From IMG/VR virus record IMGVR_UViG_3300005664_000123, positions 1 to 21,396 of that record: 21,396 bases of DNA. The stretch is one strand, 5' to 3'. A program made the translations under genes and the position numbers. The notes under the pieces were generated by a model. That model did not search any database. It worked only from the letters and a program-made list of their open reading frames with translations, and had not been told where the DNA came from. The DNA is from a virus. Below are positions 4,866 through 15,579 of this stretch, one piece after another (the first letter of the stretch is position 1; every line of letters begins with the position of its first letter).

Positions 4866-5372
4866 TTATTCCTCCACCGATCCTACGACCTCAGTCTCAT
4901 CGTCTACTGTACCAACCACATTACCAGCTACGAGCTGGAGTGAGGAGAGAAGCGTATCAGCGATACCAGAGAGAGAGTCCGTGAGAACCCCTGCACTGAC
5001 AGCTGACATAGAGACCGTATTTGAGTCCTGAATACCTGCTGCACTCCGTGCCTTCACGCCTACATGATACGTCGTACCCTCTACGAGAGGTGAGAGATCC
5101 TTAATATTGTAGATGTCCTCTACCAGTAGATTCTCTACTGCAGGGAGCTTATTTGCATCTACGAATAGACCGACTGCAGTGCCCGCCTGGATGTAGATGT
5201 CATAGAACTTAGGGTTTAGAACGTGTACGGCTGCGAGCCATGTAATCCTAAGAGATCCATTTGCCTGAGCCGTGATAGTAGCGATACCAGCGAATACAGG
5301 AGGCGTGATGTTGTCTACGCATGCGTCTGGTAGTGTGAACACCATACTTTCTGCTGCGATCTGGAACACCAT
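4866..5372 (-). CDS. Fibronectin type III domain protein, probable virion decoration
   Basis: The 168-residue product has an FN3-like domain at about residues 23-127. It opens TPPVFAG and has a core L-R-I-T-W, then YDIYIQAGTAVGLF, the tyrosine-corner-like region TTYHVGVKARSAAG and a last strand NTVSMSAV. FN3 domains are common add-ons of phage tail, capsid and fibre proteins, where they mediate weak surface binding. The N-terminal 20 residues (MVFQIAAESMVF) and the acidic C-terminal tail (DDETEVVGSVEE) lie outside it. The start is preceded by GGGAGAG located in the last codons of the 625-residue gene, so the two are co-translated. Confidence 0.7.
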   Translation of the reverse strand: MVFQIAAESMVFTLPDACVDNITPPVFAGIATITAQANGSLRITWLAAVHVLNPKFYDIYIQAGTAVGLFVDANKLPAVENLLVEDIYNIKDLSPLVEGTTYHVGVKARSAAGIQDSNTVSMSAVSAGVLTDSLSGIADTLLSSLQLVAGNVVGTVDDETEVVGSVEE

Positions 5373-5373
5373 C

Positions 5374-7251
5374 TTAACTCTCCCTTATGCTGAACTGAGT
5401 TTTCTGAGGATTCGGTGCACCTATCGTGAGCTGTAGCATGTGACCGACCACATTCCCTAGAGCCACGTATGGAAGGAATGTCACTCCGTCATCGACGCTG
5501 TATCCGAAGTCAGCGGCATTGAGCAGCAAACTCTTCGTGATCAGTAGATTCGCAGGATTCGATAGATCATATCCACGAGCTACGAGATCACCAGGAGCTA
5601 CAGGGTATAATCTCTTCTGAATGAATGTGACTTTCGCAGGACTATTCTCTGTACTGTGAGTGAATATCACAGACCAGTAGTCACTCATCTCACTCTTGGG
5701 TTGATAGCCTACATGGATCTCCTCGATCTGATTTGGGATCTGATTGTACTCAGACATACCGCGAGAAAATCCTCTAATTTGAATCTGTTCACCAGCAGCA
5801 AGTGCGCTCAAATCACCAGAGTCTAAAACGTCTGTCCATCCAACGGTCTCTGGTGCAAACCCAGAGATTCTGTACTGGAATCTTCCTCTGACGGTTCTGT
5901 TCGCTAATTGAGAAATTACGCTGAGGAAAGCTAGAGTATCGCCATCAGTAGTGTCCATGACCTTTGTGATGAAGTACTCAAGGCCGTAAACCTGAGCTGT
6001 TTTTATAGGAGTGAGTACGATACCTCTTTGCGAGACTGTCGTCATTACTCCCGCCGCCCATCCGAGCCCAGCAGCTACTTGAGTCATCGTTATTCCGCCG
6101 AAGAGATGCCCTTCTGAAAATGATGCGTGTCCTGCCGCCTCTAAAAATCTGTCATGACTGTTGCCGAATATCATATCAAACTCACCGCTCATGTGTCGTC
6201 TTGCTATGAAGTTCGATGAGCCAATATTTATTACTTCCCTCTCGACATCTTGTGACCAAGAAGCTGATACATAGGTAGGGTTAATAAATGGAGGACTGAA
6301 CGGCATCAAGTTACTCGCCGGATTGAGTGACGGCCATGTAGTCCCACCCGCAATGAGTTCGCTCAATAGACCGAGATACGTTTGAGTCGTAGTAGCGAAA
6401 AAGAAACAAGGATTGTTTTGAAGTGCCACTGGCAAATATGACTCTGTAGGAACTACTGCTTCTCCTGAATTCGTGAGTAGTAAGGTTCCAGTTAGAGCTG
6501 GAAGGTTTCCTGTGATACCAGTACCACCGAATACGTTGAGAGTGGTGATGATACCGTTCGCACCTGGAACACCAGTCGGAAGAGAGTAGTCTACTTTATA
6601 AGCCTGATATGTAGCTGAAACTCCGTTAAGCATGTAGAGCAATTTTTCTGTTTGTCTCAGAGCTAGAGCTACACCTGCAGTCAGAGTGAATGGTGAGTTC
6701 TCAAGTTTATAAACTTGCTTCGCGTCAGCGATTGTAGCTGTAGGGATCGTCGTAGGCACACCTGAGAAGTCTGTCTTAGCTAGTCCTATAGCAGCAGATC
6801 CTGCCATGTAGGTTCCACCGTTAGCAGTAACTGATCCAGTGGTAGTGACGAACACTTGCCATCCAGTTACGACGGCAGATGAAGCTCCGTCATCAACTTT
6901 AACAGCTCTCACCGTGTGAGTTGTCGCAGGAGAGTTGATCACAGTCAGAATGCAAGAACCAACAGAATTAGCCTGTCCTGTCAGTGGATTGAAATCGTAT
7001 AACATGCATCTCATGAGACCAGCCACAGGAGCTGAGAATACAAATATGCGATTATTTCCGATGTGTACTGAAACCGCTGCTAATCCGAAGTCATCGAACA
7101 CAGGGAGGAACACGTTTAATGGAGGACCGAGAGCGTTCTTACCTGTCGATGCGATAAGTTTAACGTTCATCATCGGAGTAATGAAAGTCTTCGTCGTGTC
7201 TCCGTAGACTCCGGTAGTGCTTAGTAACAAATCTGCTTTGACTGACTTCAT
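5374..7251 (-). CDS. Large beta-rich putative virion protein, unrecognised family
   Basis: This 625-residue protein begins MKSVKADLLL with AAGGAG 6 bases upstream. It is rich in Gly, Thr, Val and Asn with alternating beta-strand patterns, and it has no signal peptide, membrane helix or coiled coil. Blocks such as VFLPVFDDFGLAAV (about 46-60) and NNRIFVFSAPVAGLMRCMLYDF recall a beta-propeller or beta-prism scaffold, but no family was recognised. It is probably a structural or receptor-binding protein, since it sits in the late operon ahead of FN3 and BppU-like genes. Composition is unusual: 5761-7251 holds only about three GATC sites while 5401-5760, the C-terminal part, holds six. This suggests the N-terminal three quarters came by recombination. 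Confidence 0.75.
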   Translation of the reverse strand: MKSVKADLLLSTTGVYGDTTKTFITPMMNVKLIASTGKNALGPPLNVFLPVFDDFGLAAVSVHIGNNRIFVFSAPVAGLMRCMLYDFNPLTGQANSVGSCILTVINSPATTHTVRAVKVDDGASSAVVTGWQVFVTTTGSVTANGGTYMAGSAAIGLAKTDFSGVPTTIPTATIADAKQVYKLENSPFTLTAGVALALRQTEKLLYMLNGVSATYQAYKVDYSLPTGVPGANGIITTLNVFGGTGITGNLPALTGTLLLTNSGEAVVPTESYLPVALQNNPCFFFATTTQTYLGLLSELIAGGTTWPSLNPASNLMPFSPPFINPTYVSASWSQDVEREVINIGSSNFIARRHMSGEFDMIFGNSHDRFLEAAGHASFSEGHLFGGITMTQVAAGLGWAAGVMTTVSQRGIVLTPIKTAQVYGLEYFITKVMDTTDGDTLAFLSVISQLANRTVRGRFQYRISGFAPETVGWTDVLDSGDLSALAAGEQIQIRGFSRGMSEYNQIPNQIEEIHVGYQPKSEMSDYWSVIFTHSTENSPAKVTFIQKRLYPVAPGDLVARGYDLSNPANLLITKSLLLNAADFGYSVDDGVTFLPYVALGNVVGHMLQLTIGAPNPQKTQFSIRES

Positions 7252-8217: not shown

Positions 8218-8460
8218 TCAACCCCCCTGATTATTATCCTTCGAATCCGAGTCTACACGATCCTCTAGATCCTGCGCCTGATGTGATGCTTTCGCTGCCT
8301 GTGCTCTCAGTCGTACTAGAGCACTGTCGAAAATCTCATCACGTGTTTTCTGATCCAGCTCGAATGCCTGTTCCTTCAACCTCGCGCGCTTCTTAGCCTC
8401 GAAATACTCACCGATGACGAGCATCAGGAATGAGAGGATACTACTGACGAGTGCCAGCAT
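8218..8460 (-). CDS. One-TM coiled-coil protein, i-spanin-like candidate
   Basis: The 80-residue product has an N-terminal membrane helix (about residues 2-17, LALVSSILSFLMLVIG). A basic stretch (EAKKRARLK) and a charged helix through residue 68 follow, then an Asp/Asn-rich end (DSDSKDNNQGG). That layout matches inner-membrane spanins and several small phage lysis-region proteins. Against a spanin role, the Lys/Arg cluster after the helix favours a cytoplasmic tail. The gene overlaps the exported protein upstream by 20 bases, as i-/o-spanin pairs often do. Its last codons supply the G6 ribosome site of the next gene. Spanin is one option; an unrelated membrane protein is equally possible. Confidence 0.65.
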   Translation of the reverse strand: MLALVSSILSFLMLVIGEYFEAKKRARLKEQAFELDQKTRDEIFDSALVRLRAQAAKASHQAQDLEDRVDSDSKDNNQGG

Positions 8461-9049
8461 ACGCTCTCCCAGCTGTGGTCATGGCGTACTCCACTCCATT
8501 GTCCACCCATCGCCATACGAAGGCAGGATCAGCTTTGATCTGATGTAGAGGTACATACGATGCAGATAGAACCCTCATGATGAGATTCCCCTCAATGCGA
8601 GTCCTCTGCTCACGACCATCCTGATCGAGCCATTTGTAGTCCACGATCACGATCCACTGACCACGGTCATTCTTTTCAAACGTGGCTCGATGTACGAGAT
8701 CACTCCAGAGAATGTCCTGACGAGTGATACCGACTGGTACCTCAAACCCTAGGTCTGGAGATCCATCAGCATAGAACACCTTGATCGACACGCATGACTT
8801 GTCCGATAGGCACTTCGATGGGGGGACTATGATCGATACCTTGTGCTGAGCCGTAGGATTACCCTCAGTCACTCTGCAGTATGTGGATCCAACCATAGGC
8901 TGCTGACCACATCCATCTATGATCACTGTCGCGTCATTTGCAGCGATAGCGAGCATCGAGGAGTCAGGAGTCACACGGTTAGTCACGCATCTCGACGATC
9001 CCATGACAGTGAATGCCATGAGTATGACGAGTAGTGGGTGGTTTCTCAT
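8441..9049 (-). CDS. Exported Cys-containing protein of the lysis region
   Basis: The 202-residue product starts MRNHPLLVILMAFTVMGSSRC. This is a signal peptide with a positive n-region and a hydrophobic core at residues 5-16. C21 follows SSR, which is a poor lipobox, so lipoprotein status is doubtful. Further cysteines come at about 47, 58, 79 and 85 (GCGQQ, TYCRV, SKCLS, KSCVS) and could form disulfides in the periplasm. The rest is a beta-rich domain (VDYKWLDQDGREQRTRIEGNL) of unknown family. GGAGG lies 9 bases upstream. Downstream it overlaps a TM/coiled-coil gene. Candidate roles are o-spanin-like or a host-surface protein; neither is shown by the sequence. Confidence 0.75.
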   Translation of the reverse strand: MRNHPLLVILMAFTVMGSSRCVTNRVTPDSSMLAIAANDATVIIDGCGQQPMVGSTYCRVTEGNPTAQHKVSIIVPPSKCLSDKSCVSIKVFYADGSPDLGFEVPVGITRQDILWSDLVHRATFEKNDRGQWIVIVDYKWLDQDGREQRTRIEGNLIMRVLSASYVPLHQIKADPAFVWRWVDNGVEYAMTTAGRAYAGTRQ

Positions 9050-9061
9050 AGAGAACCTCCG

Positions 9062-9427
9062 TTATTTTTTAGCGTTAAACATCGAGAGATACTTGAGCCA
9101 GTAGAGAACTTTCTCACTCTTAGCTACGATCTTCTCTGCAGCGTCATGAGCACCTACGAGCTTTGCAGCCCCTGCACTCAGCTTCACGAACATGATCAAG
9201 CCAGCAGATAGTGAGGTCATCACGATACTGACTGCAGCGATGATCTCAATCGCCTTGACCAATACAGGTCCGACATGTGGAATATTGAGTAAGAATTGCA
9301 TGACCATGCTCACCCACTCGAAGCCCTCTGGTGGAGCGACGACATCCTGTGCGAGTGCCACAGCAGCGAAGGTGAGGATAGAGAATACAAACAAAGCGAA
9401 CGTGTTTTTAAAAATAGATTTCAACAT
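9062..9427 (-). CDS. Holin candidate with signal-like N-terminus
   Basis: The 121-residue product has two hydrophobic segments. One is an N-terminal helix with AVALAQ at about 22-27, which looks like a signal peptidase site. The second is a long helix at about 58-82 (AIEIIAAVSIVMTSLSAGLIMFV), followed by a Lys/Ala-rich amphipathic tail ending MFNAKK. It sits directly downstream of an NlpC/P60 endolysin that has no export signal, so a membrane pore former is expected nearby and this is a good candidate. AAGGGGG precedes the ATG. If the N-terminal helix is cleaved the mature protein would have one TM, unusual for a holin. Confidence 0.6.
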   Translation of the reverse strand: MLKSIFKNTFALFVFSILTFAAVALAQDVVAPPEGFEWVSMVMQFLLNIPHVGPVLVKAIEIIAAVSIVMTSLSAGLIMFVKLSAGAAKLVGAHDAAEKIVAKSEKVLYWLKYLSMFNAKK

Positions 9428-9451
9428 ATAGAACCCCCTTAGGTTATGTCC

Positions 9452-9880
9452 CTAGAGAGTCTCATAGGGTGGTCTGGATGTCCCAACAAGGTCGCCACGG
9501 AATGAGATCGGACGGATACGCACAAATGCATTCTGCATCGCAGCTATTTCCTTCGTAGTGGATCTCGAGTCACCACCACCAGCCTCAATCATAAGCCCCC
9601 CACTGTAGGCTATAGCCACGTGAGTGATTTGCTCCGAGTCCTTACCGAAAAACAGTAGATCGCCTCTCTGTGGAGGTACTGTGCGCTTAGCTACAGGCCA
9701 TTTATTGTGTAGCATCTGAGAGTTCAAATCCTCAGCACGTCTGATGAGGCCGATCGATCTGAGTCCCTCGCATACGAGTCCACTACAGTCAAAGCCATGG
9801 AGAGGATTGTTACCCATCCAGATATAAGGCGTTCCCATAAACTTCATTAGGTACTCGACCATGACATCAGCCTGGTTCAT
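9452..9880 (-). CDS. NlpC/P60 family cysteine peptidase, probable endolysin
   Basis: This 142-residue protein is a complete NlpC/P60 domain. It shows the nucleophile in FDCSGL (C32), the GDLLFF strand at 73-78, the catalytic THVAI histidine (H87) and a third polar residue at E99 in MIEA, where many members have His. The family cleaves peptide bonds in murein stem peptides, usually D-Glu to diamino acid. No signal peptide, anchor or wall-binding domain is present, so a holin should release it; candidates flank it on both sides. A tail-associated lysin is less likely given the lysis-like context. The start makes an ATGA overlap with the upstream TM protein. Confidence 0.9.
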   Translation of the reverse strand: MNQADVMVEYLMKFMGTPYIWMGNNPLHGFDCSGLVCEGLRSIGLIRRAEDLNSQMLHNKWPVAKRTVPPQRGDLLFFGKDSEQITHVAIAYSGGLMIEAGGGDSRSTTKEIAAMQNAFVRIRPISFRGDLVGTSRPPYETL

Positions 9881-10149
9881 TGCTCACGCCTCGATGGTCG
9901 TCTGAGATACCCCTCAATGCGTGCATTAGACTCACTCAGCTTATCCAGACGCTGGATGATCGCATCCTTGTCCTGCTTATATACAGACTCATGTCTCTTC
10001 AGAGAGTCATCCGTATTGATCGCCTTAGCCTCGACATTAGACAGCCACATCACCACAGGTACTATCACTACGATGAGCGCAAAGCACCCAGATATGACCG
10101 TCACAAGCCAGCTAAACGGAACCTTGTATTTCACTGAATCATCACCCAT
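9877..10149 (-). CDS. One-TM coiled-coil protein beside the endolysin
   Basis: The 90-residue product has a membrane helix at about residues 13-36 (WLVTVISGCFALIVVIVPVVMWL). A predicted coiled coil follows (DSLKRHESVYK, AIIQRLDKLSESNARIEGYL), ending in a basic RRPSRREQ tail. This is the general layout of an i-spanin or of a membrane-anchored holin accessory protein. GGAGAG precedes the ATG. The stop overlaps the endolysin start, which strongly suggests a shared lysis role. The window thus has two genes of this architecture (here and at 8218), and the sequence does not decide which is the spanin. Confidence 0.72.
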   Translation of the reverse strand: MGDDSVKYKVPFSWLVTVISGCFALIVVIVPVVMWLSNVEAKAINTDDSLKRHESVYKQDKDAIIQRLDKLSESNARIEGYLRRPSRREQ

Positions 10150-10178
10150 TGTCGCTCTCCGTCATAGTGTAACAAAAA

Positions 10179-10547
10179 TCATTTGAGTCTGATACGGATA
10201 CCTACACCATCCTCAACAGGAAAATCCACAATCGGATGAGGCCGATCGAGTCCATGCTGAGAATGGTGGTAGAAGAAAACGTCTAGGTTAGATCCAACAT
10301 TCACGCCTGCCTCGAACTTCAAAGCAGCCCATGAGAATCGATCTGGAGTAGTGAATCCATGCACACGAGTACCGATGTACGTAGGACCGATCAGCTGGAA
10401 ATCAATATCCACTCCCATGCGATCCTTGATCTGCTCATGGGGGGACTCAAGGTACCGACCTCCACCGATCATACGGATGTAGTCGATACTGAGGTTTCTA
10501 AGTTCTAGTGCGAATGTGGACTGGATCAAAAAGAGAAGCATCACCAT
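10179..10547 (-). CDS. Small exported beta protein with PagL-like HxS motif
   Basis: The 122-residue product has a short hydrophobic N-terminus ending TFA (about 1-13), probably a signal peptide but without positive charge. An in-frame TAG just upstream of the ATG rules out an earlier start. Alternating hydrophobic strands follow (LSIDYIRMI, VDIDFQLIG, ALKFEAGVNVG, NLDVFFYHH, GVGIRIRLK), as in outer-membrane strands. The segment HHSQHGLDRPHP (94-105) resembles the H-x-S-N-x-G-L-x-x-P-N stretch holding the catalytic His and Ser of PagL lipid A 3-O-deacylases. The protein is shorter than PagL (about 150 or more residues) and Asn is replaced by Gln. The family is tentative: it may be a compact LPS-modifying enzyme or merely an outer-membrane protein. 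Confidence 0.6.
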   Translation of the reverse strand: MVMLLFLIQSTFALELRNLSIDYIRMIGGGRYLESPHEQIKDRMGVDIDFQLIGPTYIGTRVHGFTTPDRFSWAALKFEAGVNVGSNLDVFFYHHSQHGLDRPHPIVDFPVEDGVGIRIRLK

Positions 10548-10583: not shown

Positions 10584-12776
10584 CTACGGCTTAGGTCCGG
10601 AACAGGTGACGAATCCTCTAGAGTCCTGACCAGCATTCGCAGCATCAAGAGTAGAGAGTTCGAACTGTGTCGCACTGTATGTATTACCAGCACCGAATGA
10701 TCCGAATACGAATCCTGCAGAGCTTCCATAAGTACCCACACAAACAGGAGCCTGTGCGAAGACTCCAGCATTAAATACATATCGGTAGCTTCCTACACCA
10801 GTTCTATTCACAGCACTGAGACCACCGCTTTGATAGTCGATCGTGCATGGATCAGAGCTACAGTCTGCGCCACTTGCGAATCTGAATGTGACCTCATTGT
10901 ACTGAGTCGGATTGATGATCTGCTTTGAGTTTTTCAATATCAGATCAGAGATGCTCATGCCGATAGGAATGATAGAGAATTGAACCTCTCCACCAGTAGC
11001 TAAAGTATCGAAATATGCGCTACATCCAGCACCAGCTCCTGATGATCTGAATGCTTGAAGTGAAATCTCTTTATCGTACACATCAGAATCAACCACTAGT
11101 ATTCCTTGGAATCCAGGCGCTCCATGTTGCGCTGTCTGAGATACATTTCTAAATGCACCGATAGAACTAGTCCCATCGAACATCCTGAATCCGCAGTCAT
11201 CAGATGTGCCTGAGTACAGTGCTCCGTTGTATTTCACTTCATAGACACCCTGTTTGAGCTTCCCGACCTTCATACAGACATCGTTAGCATTCGAGCATAC
11301 AGCTGCAGAACCTAGATAAGTCTTCGTCATCGCAGCAAAGTCAGCGTGTGAGAGAGTAGTGAACGATGCAGCTGTAGTGTTAAGACTTGTAGTCGGACCT
11401 GAGGCTACAATTTTAGATGCCGCCCAACTTGGTTGCTCATTCACTCTCTGAGCCTGTTCTGACTTAGAAGGGAAACGAATAACTTTGAACGATAGAGGAC
11501 TCTTACTAGTACCAGCACTTCCGTCTACGTTGATCGTAGCCTGAGTGCTCACATAAGATTGAATTCTAAATACCTGATTGGTACTTGATGCACCCTTACT
11601 CACTAAGAACGAAAGAACTGGAACAGCACCGAATCCACCGTTCTCAGAGTCAAGAGTACCTTGAGGATCATATCTAGTTGTTCCGTCGTACAAAGCGAAA
11701 GCACAATCTTGAGTCGCAGCATCGTTAGCGCACGCAAACACACCAGTCACAGTAATTTGATAATCACCTGCTGGCATGTCAGCAATTTGAAATGAAGGCT
11801 GAGGACCTGCTAATCCAGAAGCAGAAAGACCACCAGTATAAGTATACACACCACATGTCCCAGTGGCCTGTGGCATATCCTGGAATGAGCCAGATGTAGA
11901 GTTTGAGTATTGGCAAGAAGCTTGATCAACTGCTGAACCGAAGAATGCTGCTTGAATTAGTTCTCTTCCTACCGACTCACCTAAAAAGCAGTTATCGATC
12001 GCAATATCAGCGGCATCAGACTGGGAGATGATCCGAGCCTGTACGCTTCCTGACGATGGGAATACGAATGGTACATAGACCTGAGCAGGATCACTGAGAG
12101 CAGGAATTGTGTTCTCTGCGAGCACTGTAGATCCGTTGTAGACCTGCAGCTTGTAGTCCGTCGCTGTGGTTTTAAACCAGCAGGATGCTACACCAGAGTT
12201 ATTTTTTAGACCGTTCGGTACGGCCACCAGCGCGTTAGACAGCGTCTGCGATGCCGCAGAAGCATTGAACACTCCAGATCTGAGGTCAAATAGGAGATTA
12301 GATCCTGACGTAGCAATGGTGAATGATCCACCTGATGCAGTCCAAGAACCTGTGCCCCCCTCAAAGTCAGGGTTTCCGTCTGCGATGATGGTGATTCCAC
12401 CAGCTCCGCCGCCACCGGATCCGATACTTTTAAAGTCAGTGCCGTTGTTCGAAAATTCAAATTTCGCTGTCGATGAGTTGTATCGTACCTTCGGGTTCGA
12501 TGCTCCAAGACCTTGGTTGAAATCTAGAACCTTAGTACCGACCGTAGGCTTACCTACGCGCACGAGATCAGACTTAACCATGATGTCCTGATCCGTTACA
12601 TTCGACTCGATCGTTGGGTTGTTGACTCCCTGATTGATGTTGAATTTTAGAACCTTTGTTGCGGACGATGACTGACGACCGAACTCATTGATGTCGACCT
12701 GTGTTTTGAAGTCAGCTGCGTAGATCGGGTTTACCGTCAACAGAGCAAGTAAGTAGGCTAGTAATTTCATGTTCAT
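10584..12776 (-). CDS. Exported Cys-rich multidomain adhesin/fibre-like protein
   Basis: The 730-residue product starts with a signal peptide (residues 1-20, ending IYAAD). Two repeats come next (about 31-59 and 72-101, sharing T-KVL-x-FN-x3-G-x2-NP) and a Gly-rich hinge (118-127). A CBM4/9-like jelly roll at 134-267 follows (NPDFEGGTGSW ... IDNCFLG). Two further Cys-containing beta-sandwich units share a C-x-F-x-x-x-DGT core, and a C-terminal domain ends FVTCSGPKP. Cysteines are numerous and often paired, which fits disulfides in the periplasm or outside. Fibre genes normally lack signal peptides, so this may be displayed on the host. GGGAG is better spaced for the second ATG (12770) than the first. 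The gene ends with tandem TAG TAG. Confidence 0.75.
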   Translation of the reverse strand: MNMKLLAYLLALLTVNPIYAADFKTQVDINEFGRQSSSATKVLKFNINQGVNNPTIESNVTDQDIMVKSDLVRVGKPTVGTKVLDFNQGLGASNPKVRYNSSTAKFEFSNNGTDFKSIGSGGGGAGGITIIADGNPDFEGGTGSWTASGGSFTIATSGSNLLFDLRSGVFNASAASQTLSNALVAVPNGLKNNSGVASCWFKTTATDYKLQVYNGSTVLAENTIPALSDPAQVYVPFVFPSSGSVQARIISQSDAADIAIDNCFLGESVGRELIQAAFFGSAVDQASCQYSNSTSGSFQDMPQATGTCGVYTYTGGLSASGLAGPQPSFQIADMPAGDYQITVTGVFACANDAATQDCAFALYDGTTRYDPQGTLDSENGGFGAVPVLSFLVSKGASSTNQVFRIQSYVSTQATINVDGSAGTSKSPLSFKVIRFPSKSEQAQRVNEQPSWAASKIVASGPTTSLNTTAASFTTLSHADFAAMTKTYLGSAAVCSNANDVCMKVGKLKQGVYEVKYNGALYSGTSDDCGFRMFDGTSSIGAFRNVSQTAQHGAPGFQGILVVDSDVYDKEISLQAFRSSGAGAGCSAYFDTLATGGEVQFSIIPIGMSISDLILKNSKQIINPTQYNEVTFRFASGADCSSDPCTIDYQSGGLSAVNRTGVGSYRYVFNAGVFAQAPVCVGTYGSSAGFVFGSFGAGNTYSATQFELSTLDAANAGQDSRGFVTCSGPKP

Positions 12777-12784
12777 TCTCCCTT

Positions 12785-13399
12785 TTAAGTTATCGTCATC
12801 GTACCACTGATAGATGAACTGCTCGACAGATCGTTGATCTCAGAAGCGCAGTTGTCAAAACGTGTGTCACGGATCTGCGTGTAGTCAGCTGCTGCCAAAA
12901 TCTTAATCGCATCACCTGTGGTGTAGTCCTCAAATCTTCCATTGTATATCGACACCTCGTCAGCCTGAATCTCCAGACCAATCGATGCGGAACCCTTCGT
13001 GTAGATCGCTGAAGGTAGGAATGTGATACGAGCCCCGTTCTTCGTGATCTGCTGCGTGGTGTTAATAGTAGCAGCATCGAGCACGAGAATATTACAGTTC
13101 GATGGGACACCGCCATCAGCCATGACAGCGTTCAAGCTAGCGTGTGTAGCGAGTCCGCCTGGTGCGATGGTGCCTACGAATGCATTGTAGATCTGAGTGA
13201 AACCTGCGACGGCATCAGTGACCTCTTCGAAATAGTCCAGCCACTCAACACCGATGTTGTAGAACAGCCAGTTAAAAAACTCGTGTGGAGGACGCTCATC
13301 AGCAGCCCATCCCGCTTCCTTCTTCGATCCAGTAGGTTCAATACGAACGGTAGGATTAGTTTCTGTCCACAGGGGTTTTGATGCAGGTTTAGTTGCCAT
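12785..13399 (-). CDS. Tail fibre-like protein with beta-helix C-terminus
   Basis: The 204-residue product opens with the motif often seen at the start of phage tail-fibre proteins: W-T-E, later KKEAGW, then RPPHEFFNWLFYNI and EWLDYFEE (about 10-62). This part is thought to dock onto the tail. From about residue 120 it turns into short repeated strands (ITFLPSAIYT, GLEIQADEVSIYNGRF, AIKILAAADYTQI) typical of right-handed beta-helices, ending SGTMTIT. The protein is short for a fibre and may be a base to which the next, larger protein attaches. AGAGGAG lies 8 bases before the ATG. It follows the gpI-like gene, the usual fibre position. Confidence 0.78.
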   Translation of the reverse strand: MATKPASKPLWTETNPTVRIEPTGSKKEAGWAADERPPHEFFNWLFYNIGVEWLDYFEEVTDAVAGFTQIYNAFVGTIAPGGLATHASLNAVMADGGVPSNCNILVLDAATINTTQQITKNGARITFLPSAIYTKGSASIGLEIQADEVSIYNGRFEDYTTGDAIKILAAADYTQIRDTRFDNCASEINDLSSSSSISGTMTIT

Positions 13400-13426: not shown

Positions 13427-14104
13427 TTATGCTAATGATCCTCCCACAAGAGGGTCTTTCGTACTACCGAAGCCCTTGGTTTTAGGATCAGGTCCGAAAA
13501 ATGCGAAATCAAATCTAGCGCGGTTCAAGTAGGCGAGTTTCCCGCCAGCACCCATGTCCACAGTGCTACCGAAGCCGAAGCCTGGGAGTAGACCATCGAA
13601 TGCGAATGCTTCGAACTCATCGAAGGTGACGATGGCATCAAGCCGTGTACCTGCTGGTCCGATTCTCTCGATCTGTGCGATCAGCATGTTCACCGCGTCT
13701 TGATCTGGAAATACATGTGAGCTTTGGAGCTGGTAGCTAGCTAGTGCACCGTCTTGGAAGTGTACGAGATCAACAGCTACGAGCACTTTAAAAACACCGA
13801 TGATCCGCTCAGGCTCACCGTTTGAAATATTCTCCGAGACCTTCGTCTTGAGTAGAATCCTGTACTCGTCATCCGTCGCTCCTGATGGACGCTCTAATCC
13901 GATGATCGTACCTAGATTGTCTAACGTCTGACCGAATGCAGTGTCGAGATCACGAAGGGTATTTAGGTCTACGAGTAGGCTCTCGATCTCCTGAATGGGA
14001 CCGTTGAAAGCATCGAGCATGGCTGCGATGAGAGGCTTCTTTTTGTACTGCTCTAAGAGCCTTTTCTTCGCGTCCTCTTTATGCGTGGTTATCTCTGTAA
14101 ACAT
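13427..14104 (-). CDS. Baseplate/tail protein, DUF2612 type (gpI-like)
   Basis: The 225-residue product has the DUF2612 signature: an N-terminal helical part (ITTHKEDAKKRLLEQYKKKPLI), then LDTAFGQTLDNLGTIIGLERP, DDEYRILLKTKVSEN and later RIGPAGTRLDAIV. The family sits directly after baseplate J in many contractile-tail phages and plays the role of P2 gpI, at the baseplate periphery near fibre attachment. The C-terminal 60 residues are Gly/Phe-rich (GLLPGFGFGSTVDMG, FAFFGPDPKTKGFG) and may be the fibre contact. The start follows the J stop as TAATG with GGAGAT upstream. Confidence 0.85.
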   Translation of the reverse strand: MFTEITTHKEDAKKRLLEQYKKKPLIAAMLDAFNGPIQEIESLLVDLNTLRDLDTAFGQTLDNLGTIIGLERPSGATDDEYRILLKTKVSENISNGEPERIIGVFKVLVAVDLVHFQDGALASYQLQSSHVFPDQDAVNMLIAQIERIGPAGTRLDAIVTFDEFEAFAFDGLLPGFGFGSTVDMGAGGKLAYLNRARFDFAFFGPDPKTKGFGSTKDPLVGGSLA

Positions 14105-15579
14105 TAGATCTCCGTCACCGATACTCTGGTGGTGTCGAAATCAGCGAACTCATTCGCAGCGATAGGAATATTGTCATCGAGTGTCGGAGCTGGAGCAGTA
14201 CCGACTTTGATCACTACGTCAGTGATACCTGGGATCGCATCGAGTGCTGCGATCAGAGTCGGATAGACGATCACGTCCTTACCGATACCGAATGCATCTC
14301 CACGATCAACGATCGCCTGCTTCACAAGCGTCACGCCGTCATCAGGGAAGTCCGTGTCAGTAGTGATGATGAGATCCACGTAAATATCCACAGCTGTAGG
14401 ACGTGAAAACTTAACAGTTTGCGCCACACCCTGAGAGTCGATCACAGTACCTACCTCGGTACCTACGGTACGAATACCAGCAGGCTTCGTGTCCCAGATC
14501 TCATCCCAAATATCCTGGTCATCTCCACCAGCGACTACAACCTCGTATGATTTCGGAGGTCTACCCTCACTGTCAAAAATTTCAGTTTCATTCTCGAATA
14601 CAATCGCAGCAGTGACACCTACGATGTTGAGCATACGTGCTCTGATAGCCTCAGGAGTTGCTGCTCCCCCCACCTGACGAGAGTTCTCAATACGAGATTT
14701 ATAAGCTGCATCAGTCTCACGATTACGACCGACCACTGCATCCACTGGATTGATCCCAGCTGTGAGTCCAGAAACAGGTGTTTCAATGACCGTGACCGTT
14801 CCTGCTGGAGCGACGGTAGGTCCTGTGCTCTCTGCGGTTAAATTAACTGTCCCTTGATTAACGCCCTCTACGGTCTGGGCTACGGTGACTACGACTGGAG
14901 TAGCTACTGTGAGAAGAGTATTGTCGATGACGACGAGCATGTCCTGCTGCTGCTTCCCTGCGTCGCCTGCGAAGGTGACGGTGAAGCCTGAGGTAAAGTT
15001 ACCAGCGACTGTGATACCAGCCCCCCATGGATCAATAGCATTCAGTGCTGCCTGTACAGCAGCGGCTGATGCATTGAATGGAAGTGCTGATGTATCGATC
15101 CCATAGAGTCGTAGCTTGAATGCTCCTGAGTCTGGGACGGTGCTGAAATCAATATCTTGAACCTCATCCATACCAGCCACGAGAGTGACTGTGAGATCCG
15201 TTTCAAATCGTCCTAATGGGTTGCCCTCTACTGAGAAAACGGTACCTGCTGGGATGACTGTAGCTGCTGATCCGAATAGCCTGAAGCCTGTGATTTTTGA
15301 TTCACGTGCTAGCTGTCGCTCAAGACCGATGGTTTTTCCGATCAGGTCTAGAGATATTCCAGTAGCAGTGGGTAGATACGCTGAGTTGTAAACGTCCTCG
15401 ACGGCCTCGTAGATCAGAGCCTCACGCTCTGCTTCAATACCTACGATCTGACCTAGTACGGTCTCAGGAAGGAGATTGATCTGATTCCCAAGGCCATCAC
15501 GCAGTGAGTCCTCGATCTCTTTTTTAATGTCGTCGAGTCGTGGGATCTGTAGTCCTGCGTCGGTCAGTCCAAATGCCAT
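14104..15579 (-). CDS. Baseplate wedge protein J with inserted beta domain
   Basis: The 491-residue product has the baseplate J layout: an N-terminal helical part (residues 1-90, LGQIVGIEAEREALIYEA), the AAT-V-I-P-AGTVFSVEG strand (105-119), the hallmark GRNRETDAAYKSRIENS (284-300), A-T-P-E-AIRARMLNI-x-GV, and a C-terminal beta/alpha part. Between about 138 and 238 sits an extra domain with S-G-A-F-KLRLYG, TSALPFNASAAAVQAALNAI and FTVTFAGDAG. This is a recurring phage and bacterial beta module (GTFTLTFNGQTT... type) not needed for the J fold. J forms the wedge that links hub to periphery and drives sheath contraction. AAGGA precedes the ATG. Confidence 0.93.
   Translation of the reverse strand: MAFGLTDAGLQIPRLDDIKKEIEDSLRDGLGNQINLLPETVLGQIVGIEAEREALIYEAVEDVYNSAYLPTATGISLDLIGKTIGLERQLARESKITGFRLFGSAATVIPAGTVFSVEGNPLGRFETDLTVTLVAGMDEVQDIDFSTVPDSGAFKLRLYGIDTSALPFNASAAAVQAALNAIDPWGAGITVAGNFTSGFTVTFAGDAGKQQQDMLVVIDNTLLTVATPVVVTVAQTVEGVNQGTVNLTAESTGPTVAPAGTVTVIETPVSGLTAGINPVDAVVGRNRETDAAYKSRIENSRQVGGAATPEAIRARMLNIVGVTAAIVFENETEIFDSEGRPPKSYEVVVAGGDDQDIWDEIWDTKPAGIRTVGTEVGTVIDSQGVAQTVKFSRPTAVDIYVDLIITTDTDFPDDGVTLVKQAIVDRGDAFGIGKDVIVYPTLIAALDAIPGITDVVIKVGTAPAPTLDDNIPIAANEFADFDTTRVSVTEI

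Follow-up and report, generated by a model that had tools for sequence, protein, structure and literature searches.

A cysteine-rich fibre-like protein with a predicted signal peptide behind the baseplate genes of a contractile-tail phage

The window, by which we mean the whole stretch of DNA analysed here, is a 21.4-kb IMG/VR fragment from a contractile-tail phage. Its minus strand carries, in this order, tail and tape-measure genes, baseplate genes, a J-like wedge gene, a DUF2612 gene, a 204-aa fibre gene, the gene for a large fibre- or adhesin-like protein (hereafter the window protein), and small lysis-like genes (Table 1). The original prediction had given the correct coordinates for the large gene, which we assign to the minus strand, as the plus-strand frame is riddled with stops. 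A GGGAG motif at 12782-12778 lies at a distance of only 1 nt from the first ATG (12776) and of 7 nt from the second (12770). Because of this Shine-Dalgarno spacing, Met3 (ATG 12770) is the probable translation start, and a start at this position probably leaves a textbook signal peptide. We also considered whether the gene might be a frameshifted extension of the upstream fibre gene; this was ruled out, as both genes possess a stop, a start, and a Shine-Dalgarno sequence of their own and the same split is found in relatives. Pfam and PHROGs searches with the window protein returned no match. Directly after it lies a gene (10179-10547, minus strand) encoding a 122-aa protein of no assigned kind with a signal peptide–like start (MVMLLFLIQSTFALELRN).

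Table 1. Features of the window around the fibre-like gene.
Feature	Position	Strand	Remarks
Signal peptide–bearing fibre/adhesin-like protein	10584..12776	-	730 aa; 728 aa if start at 12770
Signal peptide, predicted cleavage after Ala20 (between MNMKLLAYLLALLTVNPIYA and A)	12717..12776	-	Sequence and conservation in most relatives
Repeat/shaft module, mature N terminus (ending ..NPKVRYNSSTAKFEFSNNGTDFKSIGSGGGG), residues 21-128, no Cys	12393..12716	-	Alignment with L031, L040, L042, L045, L022, and signal peptide–less L041
CBM4/22-like beta-sandwich, residues 125-270, Cys199 and Cys263	11967..12404	-	VIA Z 12-16
TNF/C1q-like domain 1, residues 277-435	11472..11948	-	Homologous to tip of Bdellovibrio Bd2734 (8okw)
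TNF-like domain, second divergent copy, residues ~452-604	10965..11423	-	Internal similarity E 1e-4; beta-sandwich in model
C-terminal domain, CSSDPCTI..QSG....APVC....CSG, residues 624-730	10587..10907	-	Family signature; motif scan and alignment
Baseplate wedge J-like protein	14104..15579	-	PHROG 6 E 1e-54; up to 52% identity in L045
DUF2612 baseplate protein	13427..14104	-	Pfam PF11041, PHROG baseplate
204-aa fibre, tail-fibre-type N terminus, no signal peptide, putative baseplate adaptor	12785..13399	-	PHROG 7389/2126 tail fiber
Small genes downstream of fibre	8441..10547	-	Lysis assignment inferred
Signal/lipoprotein-like N termini	10179-10547 and 8441-9049	-	Sequence pattern only
Holin-like gene	9062-9427	-	Sequence pattern only
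NlpC/P60-like endolysin	9452-9880	-	Sequence pattern only

Whole-protein tblastn, related-locus, and genome-contig searches found no relative of the window protein, and separate queries with its N-terminal and CBM regions likewise gave no match. When viral contigs were scanned with a degenerate DNA pattern built from the C-terminal signature (CSSxPCT...QSG), 12 true relatives were recovered, and profiles of the C-terminal domain and the N-terminal module raised the relatives to 22 viral contigs, the window excluded. Full-length alignment showed 21-28% identity. Two candidates, L014 and L015, were chance motif matches and were dropped. When the homologues from L012 and L010 were used as queries, no match was found in isolated phages or in plasmids.

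The domain architecture was examined on an AlphaFold model built with 14 homologues (mean pLDDT 60, rising to 70-89 in the best parts of the core domains), as the model from the single sequence was uninformative (pLDDT 35). The CBM-like and other beta-sandwich units of the original prediction were borne out by this model, which contains four beta-sandwich domains, and by structure comparison. After the signal peptide, the window protein and its relatives have at least one copy of a repeat module ending in ..FSNDGTxFxxIGSGSG; no tail-docking N terminus was recognised there by Pfam or PHROG, and the place is occupied by this conserved shaft-like module. The next domain resembles CBM22 and CBM4 structures and other CBM-bearing enzymes (Z ~14 for CBM4/CBM22 modules); at ~10-20% identity, the likeness is one of fold, and sugar binding is putative. 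The first TNF-like domain matched the tip of Bd2734 by phmmer with the single sequence (3.4e-7) and with the family profile (5e-25), and its model superposed on PDB 8OKW with a VIA Z of 18.9 and an rmsd of 2.0 Å over 147 aa (24% identity). The homology of this domain thus extends to a surface adhesin encoded on a bacterial chromosome, in line with the search for chromosomal homologues that the original prediction had suggested.

Bd2734 is a mosaic adhesive trimer (MAT) fibre of Bdellovibrio with a disulphide-bearing TNF-like tip; tagged MAT proteins were located on the predator surface, and the family is displayed on attack-phase Bdellovibrio (PMC10769870). The window protein shares with Bd2734 and the MATs a signal peptide, a modular fibre, a TNF-like adhesive domain, and a cysteine framework. 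However, MATs are chromosomally encoded and displayed on the cell surface, and their signal peptide is followed by a conserved beta-rich domain of ~130 aa at the N terminus. The window protein is encoded in a phage tail operon, has two copies of the TNF-like domain in its interior, and ends in a different domain. The finding ties phage fibres to adhesins that Bdellovibrio uses in prey recognition.

All 14 cysteines of the window protein lie beyond residue 198 and are distributed 2+4+4+4 over the domains; the numerous paired cysteines that had been predicted thus find support as an even number in every domain. The even counts, together with the disulphide-bearing Bd2734 structure, suggest that disulfides may form. 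The cysteine content is 1.9%, as compared to 0.46% in the 13 other structural or tail ORFs of the window. Large signal peptide–like proteins likewise had a higher median than other large ORFs on the same contigs (1.63 versus 0.56 Cys per 100 aa; Mann-Whitney p 1e-5).

The N terminus itself (MNMKLLAYLLALLTVNPIYA followed by ADFKTQ) combines a positively charged n-region with a hydrophobic core, followed by a site acceptable for cleavage. Signal peptides were called by a crude rule, with a false-pass rate of ~3% on internal 50-mers of the window's tail proteins. None of the 13 other tail or structural proteins of the window has a start of this type, while relatives in ~19 of the 22 contigs pass the rule or resemble signal peptides, a count that includes L037, whose start is hydrophobic and lacks n-region charge. 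When the relatives were aligned, the n-region charge, the h-region, and the AxA-like c-region were found to be kept at ~30% identity, although the letters differ. This conservation rules out a chance hydrophobic start. The Sec signal peptide of the original prediction was therefore confirmed at the level of predicted and conserved n-, h-, and c-regions, and from these features, we consider Sec export of the window protein very likely and conserved.

Homologues lacking the hydrophobic N terminus, which had been named as speaking against this prediction, do exist in 3 of the 22 contigs (L004/L025, L010/L026, and L041); they look like variants rather than refutations. Those of L004/L025 and L010/L026 have a different N terminus (MANTSNRVKLTDYL/MGNIANRVLLADYL) and an adjoining thioredoxin-like gene; the L004 and L010 proteins contain the same domains as the window protein and are located in tail positions. 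The L041 protein has only three cysteines, and the alignment showed that the shaft module that trails the signal peptide elsewhere begins almost at its start Met. A similar motif is also present in the signal peptide–less fibres L048-L050. Because L041 and L048-L050 bear the module or a similar motif, the signal peptide seems to have been added to an N terminus otherwise typical of phage fibres. The thioredoxin-like genes (L025:10314-10799 and L026:10285-10638, with CHHC and CKVC motifs) directly follow each signal peptide–less cysteine-rich fibre and are accompanied by a small multi-cysteine protein, DUF6171-like in L025. These neighbours possibly reflect an alternative handling of cysteines, or merely a common T4-type pair.

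The gene order supports the predicted placement of a fibre- or adhesin-like protein in the receptor-binding slot, as the succession of baseplate J, DUF2612, fibre, and window gene is found in the window and four to five relatives. The signal peptide–bearing relatives in the ~19 contigs likewise occupy a slot of this kind. The window, L031, L040, L042, and L045 share the order of baseplate J, DUF2612, a signal peptide–less fibre of ~200 aa, and a signal peptide–bearing fibre; identity in the first two of these genes is 37-52%. Among these four contigs, sequence comparison recognises the fibre adaptor only in L040, L042, and L045; the 204-aa fibre is also conserved in L002. The sixth member of this set with nearly the same order, L022, has a P2-like baseplate and an identical final step; across residues 70-267 of the window protein, its signal peptide–bearing protein shows 48% identity. 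In a similar cassette, the signal peptide–bearing protein L037:4181-4984 contains a Phage Tail Collar domain (E 3e-13).

A corresponding arrangement is present in an isolated phage, phi1422 (JQ177062), a dwarf myovirus of Bdellovibrio bacteriovorus listed as lytic (PMC3391216). Its baseplate gene gp65 is followed by gp66, the fibre gene gp67 (no signal peptide, no cysteine), and gp68 (L051:40429-42273), annotated as hypothetical, which encodes 614 aa with a clear predicted signal peptide (start MKFMIAFIIALFSVTMATAQ) and eight cysteines. Thus, gp68 resembles the window protein in slot, signal peptide, cysteines, and size; however, its similarity to the family is weak and at the domain level (best E 7e-4, to L045). 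Judging from the Bd2734-like domain and phi1422, the host of the window phage is probably a Bdellovibrio-like predatory bacterium. The fibres at the corresponding place in Hafnia phage Meifeng, Erwinia phage phiEt88, and Aeromonas phage 56 have no signal peptide. The baseplates of Meifeng and phiEt88 are related to that of the window, and their fibres (MIFENG_62 and P88_00280, 636-658 aa) likewise lie behind baseplate genes; in contrast to the window protein, they have five to seven cysteines and a canonical tail-fibre N terminus.

In tailed phages, both synthesis and assembly of tail fibres are expected to take place in the cytoplasm. The original prediction had offered two fates for an exported fibre, display on the host surface or maturation in the periplasm before joining virions; we favour the second, given the late tail-to-lysis position and the similar gene in lytic phi1422, while retaining both. 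We put at about even (roughly 0.5) the probability that the window protein is exported via Sec, joins virions, and recognises the host as the distal fibre of the contractile-tail phage or the tip of such a fibre. This reading is favoured by the location of the gene between tail and lysis genes in many contigs, by the signal peptide that precedes a tail-collar domain, and by the similar gene in lytic phi1422. The protein would be expressed late, together with the tail genes, and exported via Sec with cleavage after Ala20, a step that is strongly predicted and conserved. In the periplasm, an oxidising compartment, it would then fold and acquire disulfides in the CBM-like and TNF-like domains and in the C-terminal one. 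Freed at lysis, it may dock through its mature N-terminal module on the adaptor fibre already on the baseplate. Several points speak against this fate: the fibre would be diluted if it were assembled after lysis, Bd2734 as the nearest relative of solved structure sits on a cell surface and not on a virion, there is no known docking domain, cysteines are retained in two signal peptide–less relatives, and the kinship of gp68 is weak. The open-access literature searched contained no precedent for such exported or post-lysis fibres, which does not exclude one.

A smaller though substantial chance goes to an exported adhesin that faces the host, acting in the periplasm of the infected cell or on its outer surface; it might, for instance, be a soluble receptor-masking protein (for superinfection exclusion or to keep progeny off debris) or a MAT-like surface fibre. 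Such a role would agree with the signal peptide and with the homology of the TNF-like domain to Bd2734, whose family has been shown at the cell surface in attack-phase Bdellovibrio, and the adjoining signal peptide–less fibre could then be the virion fibre. However, expression this late, between tail and lysis genes in many contigs and in lytic phi1422, would leave little time to benefit the cell, and both the tail-collar domain of L037 and the tail positions of the L004 and L010 fibres with the same domains argue against it.

It is improbable that the hydrophobic N terminus is non-functional as a signal peptide and instead serves for docking or trimerisation of a fibre assembled in the cytoplasm. 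Three relatives do without the segment, and two of them retain the cysteine pattern, which would fit; however, the n-, h-, and c-features persist while the letters vary, the following module begins near the initiator Met where the segment is missing, and cysteine enrichment accompanies the segment. Least probable of all is that the phage picked up a MAT-type adhesin gene of the predator as mere cargo, without any function in particle or infection, as, apart from the domain homology to Bd2734, the position right behind baseplate and fibre genes is conserved across several tail types and unrelated phages, the shaft module is shared with phage fibres, and the composition profile of the window has no foreign-DNA boundary.

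Returning to the exported virion fibre, we propose tentatively, and at somewhat less than even odds, that a set of tailed phages, probably of Bdellovibrio-like predators, exports its receptor-binding fibres via Sec, that disulfides mature these fibres once they have left the cytoplasm, and that they are attached to virions no earlier than lysis. This last step may take place within the closed prey ghost, in which case fibres and virions would be held together. If true, such a route would break the rule that tailed-phage virions are finished in the cytoplasm and would suggest an origin of the predators' surface adhesins. A conserved syntenic class of signal peptide–bearing, cysteine-rich proteins in the fibre slot makes two possibilities testable in the isolate phi1422: a deviating route of assembly, or an additional task of fibres that is directed at the host.

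Two to four consecutive fibre-slot proteins with signal peptides occur per contig in L022, L027, L030, L033, and L034. In three of these contigs, the proteins, each with its own signal peptide, form runs (L030:7057-10321, L033:2923-6404, and L034:5266-13007), so that entire fibre cassettes seem, from their predicted N termini, to be exported. Past the presumed lysis genes of the window (4866-7251, minus strand), a 625-aa and a 168-aa (fn3-like) protein resemble by eye the first genes of L010 (L010:2-3255), which hints at a shared phage community.
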